Source: Thermoanaerobacterium sp. RBIITD
Lineage (GTDB): Bacteria; Bacillota; Thermoanaerobacteria; Thermoanaerobacterales; Thermoanaerobacteraceae
Assembly (NCBI RefSeq): GCF_900205865.1
Contig: NZ_LT906662.1
Location: forward strand, 1,550,001-1,614,000
Length of the DNA: 64,000 nucleotides
Direction: 5' to 3'
Shown: piece after piece, positions 51,959-56,762 of the stretch
How the letters are laid out: each line of letters begins with the position of its first letter
Position numbering within the stretch: position 1 is the stretch's first letter
Notes under the pieces: generated by a model
What the model was told of the DNA's origin: nothing
Seen by the model: only the letters and a program-made list of their open reading frames with translations
Databases searched by the model: none
Program-made: the position numbers and the translations under genes

Positions 51959-51987
51959 AGTTTTAAGATATAATAAGGGGTGTTTTT

Positions 51988-52671
51988 ATGGGAGAGAATA
52001 AAAAGATATATATTGTTGATGATGATAGAAATATATGTGAAATAATTTCTTTGTACCTTGAAAAAGAGGGATTCAGCACTTTGAGAATCGGTGATGGCAC
52101 AACGGCTCTTAATAAAATAAAAGAAGAAAACCCTATGCTTATTATACTTGACTTAATGCTTCCAGGCATTGATGGTATGACGTTATGCAAGGAAGTGAGA
52201 AAATTCACGGATGTTCCGATAATCATGCTTACGGCAAAAGGTGATACTTTTGACAAAGTATTGGGGCTTGAGATAGGTGCAGATGATTATATTGTTAAGC
52301 CTTTTGATGGAAAAGAATTAGTTGCGAGAGTTAAAGCTGTTTTAAGAAGATACGAACATAAAGAGGATAATGGTGACTATATAACATATCCAGATTTGTC
52401 CATAAGCTTAAGTGAATACAAAGTCATATACAAGGGGAAAAATATTGATTTGACGCCAAAGGAATTAGAGCTTTTTTACTTTTTGTGCACACATCCCAAC
52501 AAGGTTTTTACAAGGGATCAGCTTTTGGAAAATGTTTGGGGATATGAATACATGGGTGATAGCAGAACTGTAGATGTCCATGTAAAGAGGTTGAGGGAAA
52601 AAATGGGAGATGGGCCAAACTGGAAGTTAACAACAGTATGGGGTGTCGGATATAAATTCGAGGTGAAATGA
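51988..52671 (+). CDS. OmpR/PhoB-family response regulator
   Basis: 227 aa. The receiver domain has the acidic pair in VDDDRNICEI, the phosphoacceptor Asp in IILDLMLPGIDG, and the Lys in DDYIVKPFDGKEL. The C-terminal winged helix shows DLTPKELELFYFLCTHPNKV and SRTVDVHVKRLREK. It is coupled to the histidine kinase gene, whose TTG start is one base after the stop. By position next to htrA and by the repeats found there, it resembles CssR of Bacillus; this is inference. Confidence 0.93.
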   Translation: MGENKKIYIVDDDRNICEIISLYLEKEGFSTLRIGDGTTALNKIKEENPMLIILDLMLPGIDGMTLCKEVRKFTDVPIIMLTAKGDTFDKVLGLEIGADDYIVKPFDGKELVARVKAVLRRYEHKEDNGDYITYPDLSISLSEYKVIYKGKNIDLTPKELELFYFLCTHPNKVFTRDQLLENVWGYEYMGDSRTVDVHVKRLREKMGDGPNWKLTTVWGVGYKFEVK

Positions 52672-52672
52672 T

Positions 52673-54094
52673 TTGGGTAGAAACAGGCTTTTTAGAAGGC
52701 TGCTTTTTACTAATATAGCGATTATTTTTATAACTATGGTAATGCTGTTTATATTATTTTATATAATGTTTCAAAATTACTATTTTCAAGAAAAAGAAAG
52801 AATAATGGTTGAAGAAGGAAAGCAGATAAATACTATATTGAATGATTATATAATAGGTGATATAGACCTTGATAGATTAAGTCAGAATTTAAATGTTGTC
52901 GATAGATTTATAAATGCATCAATTTGGGTCGTCAGTACGGACGGACGTATATACATTCAATCGAGGAACTTTGAAAAAAACTGGACAGGAGTAAAGTTAA
53001 GTCAAGATGATATTAAAAATATTTTACATGGTGAGACTATCGTAAGAAGGGGTTATTTTGGCGGAAGATTTACACAGCCGGTATTGACAGTAGGACTGCC
53101 ACTTGTACTAAATGGAAAGATTCAAGGTGCAATATTTATGCATGCACCCATTGTTGAGATGCAAAAAACATTGATGGATATATTTTTAATAATGATTATT
53201 GCCATATCAGCATCTATATTGGTTGCATTTATATTAATTTCATACACATCTAAAAGAATTTCAGATCCTTTAAAAGAGATGAGCCTTGCTACAAAGAAAA
53301 TGGCAAAAGGGGATTTTTCGACTAAGATAAATGTCATTGATGATGATGAAATAGGTGATCTTTCAAAATCATTTAATGTCATGTCAAGTGAGCTAGGAAG
53401 AATAGACAGTGCGAGAAAGGAATTTGTTGCAAATGTTTCTCATGAACTGCGTTCGCCACTTTCGACAATTCAAGGATATATCGATGGTGTTGTCGATGGT
53501 ACAATACCTCAGGATAAAGCGAATTTTTACCTTGGGATAGCACAAAAAGAAACGCGGCGCATGGCGAGGCTTATTTCTGAGCTTCTAGATATTACAAAGA
53601 TGGAATCAGGTGAATTTCCTTTAACCATTTCAGAATTTGATGTCAATGAGTTGATAAGACTAACATTGATCAAGATGGAATCCCGCATAAATGATAAAAA
53701 ATTAATGGTAAAGGTAGACTTTGATAGTGAAAAAAATATTGTTGAGGCAGATAAGGACAGAATAGAACAGGTTTTAACAAATTTAATTGATAATGCGATT
53801 AAATTCTCGGACATAGAAGGTTACATCCATGTATTAACAGAGAAAGCAAAAGATAAACTGTATATAAAGATACAAAACAAAGGCAAGATAATACCAGATG
53901 ATGAAATACCACATATATGGGATAGATTTTATAAAGCGGATAAGTCAAGAAGCGGCAGCAATGGTGTTGGTTTAGGCTTATATATCGTAAAGAATATAAT
54001 AAACCAGCATAACGAAGACATTTGGGTAAAAAGCAACAAAGAGGATGGAACGACCTTTACATTCACATTAAAGCTGAAAAAAATTAAATCATAG
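52673..54094 (+). CDS. sensor histidine kinase
   Basis: 473 aa membrane kinase starting at TTG with GAGGTG upstream. Order: membrane helix (about 8-30), extracellular sensor domain (31-165), second helix (about 168-190), HAMP (191-240), H-box FVANVSHELRSPLSTIQGY with the phospho-His, N-box QVLTNLIDNAIKFSD, and G-boxes (IWDRFYK, GVGLGLYIVK). It phosphorylates the preceding response regulator. The sensor part has no recognised ligand motif. An htrA-type protease gene behind it suggests sensing of envelope or secretion stress. Confidence 0.93.
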   Translation: MGRNRLFRRLLFTNIAIIFITMVMLFILFYIMFQNYYFQEKERIMVEEGKQINTILNDYIIGDIDLDRLSQNLNVVDRFINASIWVVSTDGRIYIQSRNFEKNWTGVKLSQDDIKNILHGETIVRRGYFGGRFTQPVLTVGLPLVLNGKIQGAIFMHAPIVEMQKTLMDIFLIMIIAISASILVAFILISYTSKRISDPLKEMSLATKKMAKGDFSTKINVIDDDEIGDLSKSFNVMSSELGRIDSARKEFVANVSHELRSPLSTIQGYIDGVVDGTIPQDKANFYLGIAQKETRRMARLISELLDITKMESGEFPLTISEFDVNELIRLTLIKMESRINDKKLMVKVDFDSEKNIVEADKDRIEQVLTNLIDNAIKFSDIEGYIHVLTEKAKDKLYIKIQNKGKIIPDDEIPHIWDRFYKADKSRSGSNGVGLGLYIVKNIINQHNEDIWVKSNKEDGTTFTFTLKLKKIKS

Positions 54095-54103
54095 AATAAA
54101 ATT

Positions 54104-54146
54104 TTTACAATTTGTTCATAGTTTATTCATAAATTAAAGATATAAT
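54104..54146 (+). promoter_or_regulatory. regulated promoter of a putative small RNA
   Basis: TTTACA (54104), TTCATA (54115) and TTCATA (54126) form three 6-mers at exact 11-bp spacing, ending 10 bp before TATAAT (54141-54146). There is no good -35 box, as in promoters activated by OmpR-type regulators. The arrangement is the same as at 54262-54304 ahead of htrA. Confidence 0.65.
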
Positions 54147-54153
54147 AATAATT

Positions 54154-54224
54154 GAGAGAGAGAAAAGCCTCTCCTTGACCTCCCTTATTATAGCAGTCCG
54201 AGCCACCCCTCGGGCTGCATTTTA
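54154..54224 (+). ncRNA. putative C-rich small RNA upstream of htrA
   Basis: A transcript from about 54154 would end at the hairpin 54193-54218 after about 70 nt and holds no reading frame. It contains the C/U-rich segments CTCTCC, CCTCCC and the terminator loop CCACCCC, a hallmark of Gram-positive regulatory RNAs that target ribosome sites. CTCTCCTT (54169-54176) is exactly complementary to AAGGAGAG (54324-54331), the htrA ribosome site. A 5' GAGAG can pair with CTCTC as a small hairpin. Existence of the RNA is inferred from promoter, terminator and composition. Confidence 0.55.
54193..54223 (+). terminator. intrinsic terminator of the putative small RNA / two-component operon
   Basis: GCAGTCCGA (54193-54201) pairs with TCGGGCTGC (54210-54218) with one G-T wobble, followed by ATTTT. 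Confidence 0.85.
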
Positions 54225-54261
54225 ATTTATAATTAAAAATAATATAAATTCTTAAAAATTA

Positions 54262-54304
54262 TTTACAAAGTGTTCACAGTTTATTAAAAATTCTCTTCTA
54301 TAAT
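54262..54304 (+). promoter_or_regulatory. regulated promoter of htrA
   Basis: TTTACA (54262), TTCACA (54273) and TTAAAA (54284) at 11-bp spacing end 10 bp before TATAAT (54299-54304). The stretch is nearly identical to 54104-54136. Confidence 0.65.
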
Positions 54305-54339
54305 GTAATTATGAAAGATAATTAAGGAGAGTGAATCAT

Positions 54340-55692
54340 ATGGATTTAAATAATAATCAAAATCAAAACATAAACAATGATGATATAAAAAATGATGACG
54401 AAATATTTACTTCAAATGAGGACTTTGAAAATTCTATGGACAAGACAGCAGAAATTCCCGCAACATATAATCAAAGTGGGGGAGTATCTGATAGCCATGA
54501 GATGCCAAGAGTAGAGTTTAGAAACAACAAAAAGAGCTTGGGAAAGATGGTAAAAAGATTTAGAAGAAGAATGTTTGTTTCTTTTGTTGCTGTCGCTTTA
54601 ATAGCTGCTTTAGCAGGTGGTGGAACTGTCGCTGGTGTGATGAGGTATTACAATGTAGGTCAACAGCCGCAAATTATAAATAGATACTTACCATTGTCAT
54701 CTGATAATAATAATTTTAGTCTTATAACAAATATTGCAAAGATAGTAAGCCCTGCCGTTGTCGGTATTGATACAAGCGTATCATATTCAAATGGTTATAG
54801 AAGCGCTCTTGTACCTCAAGGTAGTGGGTCTGGTATAATATTTGATTCACAGGGATATATTGTTACAAATAATCATGTAATAAATGGTGCATCGAAAATT
54901 ACAGTTAACCTTTCCGATGGTAGGAAATTCTCTGCTCAATTGGTTGGCAAAGATGATAAGACAGACCTTGCAGTCTTAAAGATAAACGCGCCAAATTTAA
55001 CTGTTGCTAAATTCGGTGATTCATCAAAGCTTGAAGTTGGTGAGCTTGCTGTTGCAATAGGAAATCCACTTGGAGAAAGCTTTGCAGGAACTGTTACAGC
55101 GGGAATAATAAGTGGCTTAAATAGGAATCTTCAAAGTGATTATGGCCCTGTGAGACTTATACAAACAGATGCGGCTATAAACCCTGGTAACAGCGGTGGA
55201 CCCCTTGTAAATAGCAAAGGTGAAGTAGTTGGCATAACAAGTGTCAAGTTAACATCGACAGGTGGGTCAGATGTTCAGGATCCATTTGGTATGTTTCAGA
55301 GTCAAGGTACACCTGTAGAAGGGATGGGGTTTGCAATTCCAATTGATGAAGCAAAGCCAATAATAGACCAGCTTATAAAACATGGTTATGTTGAAAGACC
55401 GATGATGGGTGTTAGCATACAGGAAGTTTCACAACAGGATTCAAAGCAATACAATATACCAGTCGGAGTATATATCGCACAAGTTCAACAAGGAAGTGCT
55501 GCAGATAATGCAGGACTTCAAGCAGGTGATATAATAACATCAATAGATGGGACACAGATAAAAACATTTGATGATTTACAGGGAATATTGAACAAGCATA
55601 AAGTCGGTGATACGATAAATGTCACCTTCTGGAGAAATGGGAAAACTCTTAGTGCAAAGGTAAAACTTATGAGCAGTGCTAATGCACAATAG
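54340..55692 (+). CDS. htrA: HtrA/DegP-like membrane-anchored serine protease
   Basis: 450 aa. A charged cytoplasmic N-terminus (1 to about 80), one membrane helix (about 84-106), a trypsin-like domain with His in VTNNHVING, Asp in DKTDLAVLK and Ser in NPGNSGGPL, then one PDZ domain (GVYIAQVQQGSAADNAGL, GDIITSIDGTQI). It degrades or refolds misfolded exported proteins outside the membrane. AAGGAGAG at 54324 sets ATG 54340, not the GTG at 54331. The upstream repeats suggest control by the adjacent two-component system. Confidence 0.95.
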   Translation: MDLNNNQNQNINNDDIKNDDEIFTSNEDFENSMDKTAEIPATYNQSGGVSDSHEMPRVEFRNNKKSLGKMVKRFRRRMFVSFVAVALIAALAGGGTVAGVMRYYNVGQQPQIINRYLPLSSDNNNFSLITNIAKIVSPAVVGIDTSVSYSNGYRSALVPQGSGSGIIFDSQGYIVTNNHVINGASKITVNLSDGRKFSAQLVGKDDKTDLAVLKINAPNLTVAKFGDSSKLEVGELAVAIGNPLGESFAGTVTAGIISGLNRNLQSDYGPVRLIQTDAAINPGNSGGPLVNSKGEVVGITSVKLTSTGGSDVQDPFGMFQSQGTPVEGMGFAIPIDEAKPIIDQLIKHGYVERPMMGVSIQEVSQQDSKQYNIPVGVYIAQVQQGSAADNAGLQAGDIITSIDGTQIKTFDDLQGILNKHKVGDTINVTFWRNGKTLSAKVKLMSSANAQ

Positions 55693-55833: not shown

Positions 55834-56406
55834 ATGTATATTATTGCAGGGCTTGGAAATCCAGGCAAAGAATACGAAGGAACAAGGCATAATATGGGTT
55901 TTAATGTAATAGATAATCTTGCTTCAAAACTTAATATTGATGTACTAAAGCTTAAATTTAAGTCATTAATTGGTGAGGGAATCTTTAAAGGTGAAAAGAT
56001 TATATTGCAAAAGCCACAAACATTTATGAATTTAAGTGGTGAAGCAATATATGATATAATAAATTTTTATAAGGTACCTCTTTCAAATCTTATCGTTGTA
56101 TATGATGATAAAGATCTTGATGTTGGTAAAATAAGAATTAGAAAGAAAGGCAGTGCAGGTGGACATAACGGCATGAAATCGATTATATATCTTTTAAATA
56201 GTGAAGACTTTCCAAGAGTGCGCGTTGGCATTGGAAAACCTGATGGAGATATGATAAAACATGTCCTTGGAAGATTTAATGATAGCGATATGGAGCTTGT
56301 AAATAGTGCTTTATCAAATGCCTCAAATGCTGTACTTGACATTATAGAGAATGGAGTTGAACATGCCATGAATTTATATAATGGCAATGGTACATGTGGG
56401 TTATAG
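55834..56406 (+). CDS. pth: peptidyl-tRNA hydrolase
   Basis: 190 aa. MYIIAGLGNPGKEYEGTRHN contains the catalytic His in TRHNMGF; KPQTFMNLSGEA, DDKDLDVGKIRIRKKGSAGG and HNGMKSI follow. It recycles peptidyl-tRNA released from stalled ribosomes. GGGAGG at 55819 fixes ATG 55834. Its 3' end overlaps the next small membrane gene by 13 bases, and mfd follows, so the three form one unit. Confidence 0.96.
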   Translation: MYIIAGLGNPGKEYEGTRHNMGFNVIDNLASKLNIDVLKLKFKSLIGEGIFKGEKIILQKPQTFMNLSGEAIYDIINFYKVPLSNLIVVYDDKDLDVGKIRIRKKGSAGGHNGMKSIIYLLNSEDFPRVRVGIGKPDGDMIKHVLGRFNDSDMELVNSALSNASNAVLDIIENGVEHAMNLYNGNGTCGL

Positions 56407-56762
56407 GTGGACTAATAAGTACTTTCATGGCTTATTTTTTAAATAAGTTTATAGTAAATAAATATGGCGATAAGGCTATAATATATGGAGTACCTTTCGC
56501 AGAGGAGTCTTCAAAAACCATTATTGGGTATTTTTCTGGCAGTATAATAGGTGTACATGCTGTATTCGGTATAACAGAAGCATTGAATGATTTTTTTTCA
56601 GCATCTAAAAGAGTAAACTTTCGCGCGGCAATGTTAAGTATAATGAGCCATGTGGTATTTGGTTTAATGACATATTATATAACAACTTATATAAATATAT
56701 ATGTTGCGGTAATTTTTGCATCATTTATACATGGGTACTGGAATAGGATTATGTTGAGGTGA
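56394..56762 (+). CDS. PrsW-like putative intramembrane protease, small
   Basis: 122 aa with about four hydrophobic helices. The spacing of acidic and His residues is like a reduced PrsW/CPBP core: PFAEESSKTIIG (Glu-Glu-x-x-Lys), FGITEALNDF (Glu), SHVVFGLM (His) and FIHGYWN (His, Asn). PrsW proteins are normally about 200 aa, so this is a minimal form or only a distant relative. It overlaps pth and ends 3 bases before the mfd start region. Protease activity is inference. Confidence 0.5.
   Translation: MWVIGGLISTFMAYFLNKFIVNKYGDKAIIYGVPFAEESSKTIIGYFSGSIIGVHAVFGITEALNDFFSASKRVNFRAAMLSIMSHVVFGLMTYYITTYINIYVAVIFASFIHGYWNRIMLR

Follow-up and report, generated by a model that had tools for sequence, protein, structure and literature searches.

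A previously uncatalogued small RNA (sRNA) gene is strongly conserved in heat-loving Thermoanaerobacter-type bacteria, where it apparently answers to the regulator that also activates the protease gene htrA and, to judge from its nucleotides, is built to block ribosome sites. In Thermoanaerobacterium sp. RBIITD (genome G000) the gene is about 71 nt long and occupies positions 54153-54223 of the window, the whole stretch of 64,000 nucleotides that was analysed; its start is inferred from the -10 box and its end from the terminator, and all features given here from the response regulator to htrA lie on the + strand. We consider it probable that the product is a real trans-acting sRNA of an uncatalogued family, co-induced with htrA by a common regulator, which would block the Shine-Dalgarno (SD) regions of several mRNAs. 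Comparison among genomes supports this reading through conservation, covariation, the architecture of co-control and the existence of further copies.

The gene order at the locus is glmU, prs, response regulator, histidine kinase, sRNA, htrA, pth and mfd, where glmU, prs, pth and mfd are names that we presume from our own reading of the translations. The response regulator (51988-52671; Pfam Response_reg and Trans_reg_C) belongs to the OmpR family, received no equivalog assignment from the NCBIfam models, and is the candidate activator; it adjoins the kinase, the promoter repeats and htrA in 20/20 family genomes. The sensor histidine kinase (52673-54094; Pfam HAMP, HisKA and HATPase_c) is 81-83% identical to those of T. 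butyriciformans and T. saccharolyticum, the nearest named relatives. The gene htrA (54340-55692) encodes a trypsin-like PDZ protease matching Pfam Trypsin_2 and PDZ_2, which scores below the equivalog cut-offs of the NCBIfam HtrA/DegP models. Farther along, a 122-aa protein (56394-56762), with pth on one side and mfd on the other, has no Pfam or NCBIfam match.

The sRNA and htrA are each preceded by a promoter of the same design, here called P1 and P2. The initial annotation had described this repeat region as hexamers of TTTACA/TTCAYA type in 11-bp steps, and both its sequence and its coordinates proved correct on re-reading. P1 begins ten bases past the kinase stop codon with the predicted regulator site TTTACA-N5-TTCATA-N5-TTCATA (54104-54131; 97% identical in the genus and 90% in the family), whose half-sites start at 54104, 54115 and 54126, followed by the -10 box TATAAT at 54141-54146. 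P2, separated from the sRNA terminator by an A+T-rich spacer, carries the predicted site TTTACA-N5-TTCACA-N5-TTAAAA (54262-54289; 94% identical in the genus and 84% in the family), with half-sites at 54262, 54273 and 54284 and a TATAAT (54299-54304) that is invariant in the 20 genomes. The 11-bp spacing is exact in both promoters, and nine bases separate the last half-site from TATAAT in each; the third half-site of P2, TTAAAA, departs from the hexamer type that had been claimed for it. The 11-bp arrangement is specific: with at most three mismatches, the pattern gave 123 matches in the nine genus genomes, whereas reversing it gave 7 and setting the half-sites at 10-bp spacing gave 10. When one mismatch was allowed across the 20 genomes, the reversed control gave 0 matches and the twin sites were found in 19, the sole exception being G009, where P1 and P2 are present in a more diverged form.

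Between the two promoters, the sRNA is laid out as a 5' hairpin, a C-rich linker and a terminator, and it folds far better than its shuffled versions (z -5.3; 0/200 shuffles as good). The predicted 5' hairpin (54154-54176), in which GAGAG pairs with CTCTC, is retained in most copies with a shifting loop length, and in these it partly hides the CUCUCC motif; none is predicted in the copies located beside macA-like operons. The almost invariant C-rich linker, CUCUCCUUGACCUCCCUUAUUA, falls in the near-invariant core CTCTCCTTGACCTCCCTTATTATA (54169-54192), whose identity reaches 100% within the genus and 98% within the family and which holds two SD-complementary segments, ACCUCCC and CUCUCCUU. The intrinsic terminator anticipated at the end of the unit was confirmed as a hairpin of 10 pairs followed by a T-rich tail (54193-54218). 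Its stem covaries, with 95% of cells paired and five pairs in which both sides have changed, whereas slid controls of the whole structure were paired in 35-49% of cells. Of the three C-rich segments proposed earlier, the third, in the terminator loop, lacks conservation outside the genus. The RNA contains two non-ATG frames of 8 and 16 codons, but several relatives have TCG where the first begins, so the earlier description of the RNA as free of reading frames is essentially correct. A leaderless peptide, LRERKASP, starting with the TTG at 54152, was ruled out because several relatives have TCG or TGT in place of this start codon.

A covariance model (R1) built from 17 copies of the sRNA scores 97.1 bits at 54152-54226 and finds the gene in 20/20 genomes of the family (Thermoanaerobacterium and Thermoanaerobacter-like), always at the same locus, with the kinase upstream and htrA downstream. 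The alignment of relatives that the initial annotation had proposed shows that P1, the core and the terminator are kept in all 20. The core is better conserved than the neighbouring coding sequence: against its 100/98% identity in genus and family, the 3' end of the kinase reaches 70/65% and the spacer between the terminator and P2 59/58%. The model matched none of the 17 other members of the class, and among 299 sampled genomes of the phylum it matched none that lies outside the family. Searches of Rfam 15 returned 0 matches above the gathering threshold, the best sub-threshold match reaching 22.5 bits where 50 are required, and a known Rfam family was thereby ruled out as the identity of the sRNA.

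Two class-level relatives, G024 and G032, carry a TTAACA/TTAATA-type repeat directly between a related kinase and htrA and have no sRNA, and in two Clostridium species a gap of about 40 bp, which holds neither repeats nor sRNA, separates the kinase from htrA. Because these relatives pair kinase and htrA without the RNA, the pairing of the two-component system with htrA is probably older and the sRNA a later, family-specific insertion. Two other loci were noted. In the distant relative G038 (L216), a kinase 41% identical is followed just downstream by an 11-bp-type repeat promoter and then by a structured, non-C-rich stretch of about 80 nt (fold -24.8 kcal/mol) with a strong terminator, possibly another, unrelated sRNA under the same regulator. 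In G042 (L219) the place of htrA after the kinase is taken by a stretch with repeats and a TATAAT, followed by a gene for a small, apparently exported protein.

Additional copies of the sRNA occur at unrelated sites and retain promoter, core and terminator. The RBIITD genome has three copies in all, two of them close to 1.319 Mb and separated by about 1 kb (L022 442-515 and 1523-1596), beside a hicA/hicB-like pair; one of these faces the 3' end of a recA-like fragment that converges on it, and has a weakened terminator. Four relatives possess one extra copy, flanked by a rodA/ftsW-like gene on one side and a macA-like/ABC efflux operon on the other, and a second repeat promoter then follows, serving the macA-like operon. 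Diverged or decaying copies were also noted downstream of a small exported protein gene: at about 1510-1660 of the reversed locus L028 (G005) the promoter is kept and ACAACCTTCTTATAG replaces the core, and in L062 (G002:C16:7845-7926) ACCTCCC and the terminator are kept.

Other genes found behind the repeat promoter are a second htrA paralog (L027, L029 and L030), in some species a third (L091), an ABC-transporter ATPase (L079 and L090), and, after the macA-type operon, the gene for the small exported protein. Their content suggests an envelope-stress-like set. The neighbouring response regulator is the likely binder of the repeats, because similar repeats directly precede htrA in class relatives that have the response regulator, kinase and htrA only. 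The earlier proposal that the adjacent system co-induces a protease and an RNA is borne out as far as the arrangement goes, with a separate sRNA gene, its own promoter and terminator, and repeats in common with htrA in 20/20 genomes; binding of the regulator to them is predicted.

From these comparisons we infer transcription of the sRNA, regulator binding, an envelope-stress signal, anti-SD action and the targets. Under envelope stress, the kinase would phosphorylate the adjacent OmpR-type regulator, which would then bind the 11-bp-spaced half-sites that replace a -35 element. The sRNA and htrA would be induced together, along with the htrA paralogs, the efflux and ABC genes and the further sRNA copies. 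With the 5' hairpin on one side and the terminator on the other, the C-rich linker would be exposed, pair with the SD regions of several mRNAs and block ribosome entry, so that other proteins, plausibly part of the envelope load and perhaps the regulator itself, would be shut down while HtrA is produced. SD blocking of multiple targets is, in our analysis, the most likely mechanism.

Candidate targets were ranked within background samples of ribosome sites taken from 464 kb of G000 (n=360) and 400 kb of the Thermoanaerobacter-like genome G015 (n=350), in which the start codons of translation start regions were picked by a simple SD rule. The best-scoring duplex of the 360 sites in G000 is that with the start region of the response-regulator mRNA (51968-51998; -26.7 kcal/mol; fourth by net binding), which engages the two core halves through 11 contiguous complement-identical positions at the SD and seven pairs at codons 1-3. 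Conceivably, the sRNA acts chiefly on its own regulator, the core halves clamping its ribosome site and codons 2-3 as a negative feedback on the regulon. None of 2000 shuffled cores pairs as well in G000, and among the 350 sites of G015 the same region forms the fifth-best duplex, but there 7% of shuffled cores equal the pairing, and the candidate was chosen once the ranking was known. Furthermore, the pairing is in the top 5% in 13 of the 20 genomes and weak in 7 (five Thermoanaerobacterium genomes, G009 and G017) despite an unchanged core. Such feedback is a lead, apparently not kept in all species, and as the chief role of the RNA it is possible yet well short of an even chance. The compound reading, in which an htrA-controlling envelope-stress system of a thermophile lineage gained an anti-SD sRNA family in its locus, independently of streptococci and Listeria, and the bipartite core acts back on the system by clamping the ribosome site of the response regulator, seems rather unlikely.

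A single long conserved target was ruled out, as the complement of 21 nt of the core, searched in the genus with at most three mismatches, matched only the sRNA genes themselves. The shorter AAGGGAGGTCR matches mainly the sRNA itself and scattered, mostly non-orthologous sites. A separate observation concerns AAGGGAGGTCAA, a sequence complementary to the core that lies about 60 nt before a sugar-binding lipoprotein gene (L165, around 1501-1512 in G003, and orthologues). This site is kept in several close relatives, is off the ribosome site and has no counterpart in G000; as a target it is only a lead.

The near-invariance of the whole core exceeds what anti-SD pairing would need, and protein binding could be the cause. 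The core might then mainly bind a protein, for instance Hfq, a cold-shock protein or a component of the ribosome, and so serve as a sponge or a mimic of the 16S 3' end, with no pairing to particular mRNAs. The invariance of 24 nt lacking a long complement elsewhere would fit this explanation, as would the presence of an Hfq gene in 9/9 genus genomes and what we take to be a resemblance of the core to the 16S anti-SD tail. However, known analogues with similar motifs work by pairing with mRNA (PMC4132741, PMC8186281), and we regard a mainly protein-binding role as decidedly unlikely.

The initial annotation had suggested, as one of two roles for the RNA, that it restrains the co-induced protease by pairing at the ribosome site of htrA. 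The complementarity on which this rested is exact, CTCTCCTT at 54169-54176 matching AAGGAGAG at 54324-54331, and the gene is adjacent. The proposed role nonetheless found no support: 5% of the sampled ribosome sites, one in twenty, have a match of at least 8 nt to the sRNA, and the htrA site ranks 72/360 by net binding. Moreover, the ribosome site of htrA varies between species while the sRNA stays invariant, so that the 8-nt match is lost in other species; in G015 the pairing is worse than average, and some copies of the sRNA are nowhere near htrA. We thus hold a limiter of htrA to be very improbable; the main target is probably something other than htrA, and the earlier suggestion that the RNA silences other messages appears to be the better half of that inference. 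Finally, a mere leader or attenuator acting on htrA through read-through, to which the position of the sRNA on the same strand immediately upstream of htrA, and of the macA-side copy likewise upstream of a gene, might point, is most improbable, because copies at unrelated sites have their own promoter (those beside the hicAB-like pair, one facing the recA-like fragment, do not precede htrA) and htrA has a conserved promoter of its own downstream of the sRNA terminator.

The preferred reading, a trans-acting anti-SD sRNA co-induced with htrA, comes with a compact predicted regulon, a covariance model and the sequence of the core, for bacteria that are used in thermophilic biofuel work. No sRNA studies on Thermoanaerobacter or Thermoanaerobacterium were found in the open literature searched.

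Several known systems resemble the one described here. In Bacillus, the two-component system CssRS induces htrA under secretion stress; we know of no sRNA in the CssRS-htrA circuit. RsaE/RoxS and other UCCC-type sRNAs of Gram-positive bacteria use C-rich motifs to pair with SD regions, and their motifs are like those of the present sRNA, which has no Rfam match.

Closer parallels, backed by experiment, are found in Streptococcus and Listeria. The strongest promoters of the streptococcal CiaRH system, with the site TTTAAG-N5-TTTAAG, drive the csRNAs, in which an unpaired anti-SD linker is flanked by two stem-loops (PMC3091779, PMC8186281); htrA is described as CiaR-regulated (PMC10197876), and CiaH has been reported in streptococci only (PMC3091779). 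Like the sRNA studied here, the csRNAs combine an OmpR-type regulator, 11-bp direct repeats and several similar sRNAs of similar size, and the two stem-loops with an unpaired anti-SD linker are common to both, apart from the first stem, which is unpredicted in the macA-side copies. The half-sites differ (TTTACA/TTCATA versus TTTAAG) with equal 11-bp geometry, the csRNA nonamer [A/C]UCCUAAA[A/C] has no exact match, CTCCTTGAC having two mismatches at a comparable position, the CAU anti-start codon of the csRNAs is absent, and the gene lies between kinase and htrA, unlike the csRNA genes. In Listeria, LisRK controls htrA and LhrC1-5 (PMC4132741, PMC11236296), and again an envelope-stress two-component system, htrA, and multicopy C-rich sRNAs directed at SD regions come together. 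The LhrC RNAs are, however, 111-114 nt long with three redundant UCCC motifs (loop, linker and terminator), opposite to the one UCCC, at 54181, in the present sRNA. Because it lacks the sequence features of the csRNAs and of LhrC and has no Rfam match, the sRNA apparently represents a new, convergent family of two-component-linked anti-SD sRNAs, and it is best read as an unrelated counterpart of the csRNAs and LhrC. An HtrA-inducing regulator would then also drive C-rich small RNAs in a third lineage, apparently unrelated to the other two, which suggests that Gram-positive bacteria have repeatedly answered envelope stress by producing the protease and silencing other messages at the same time.
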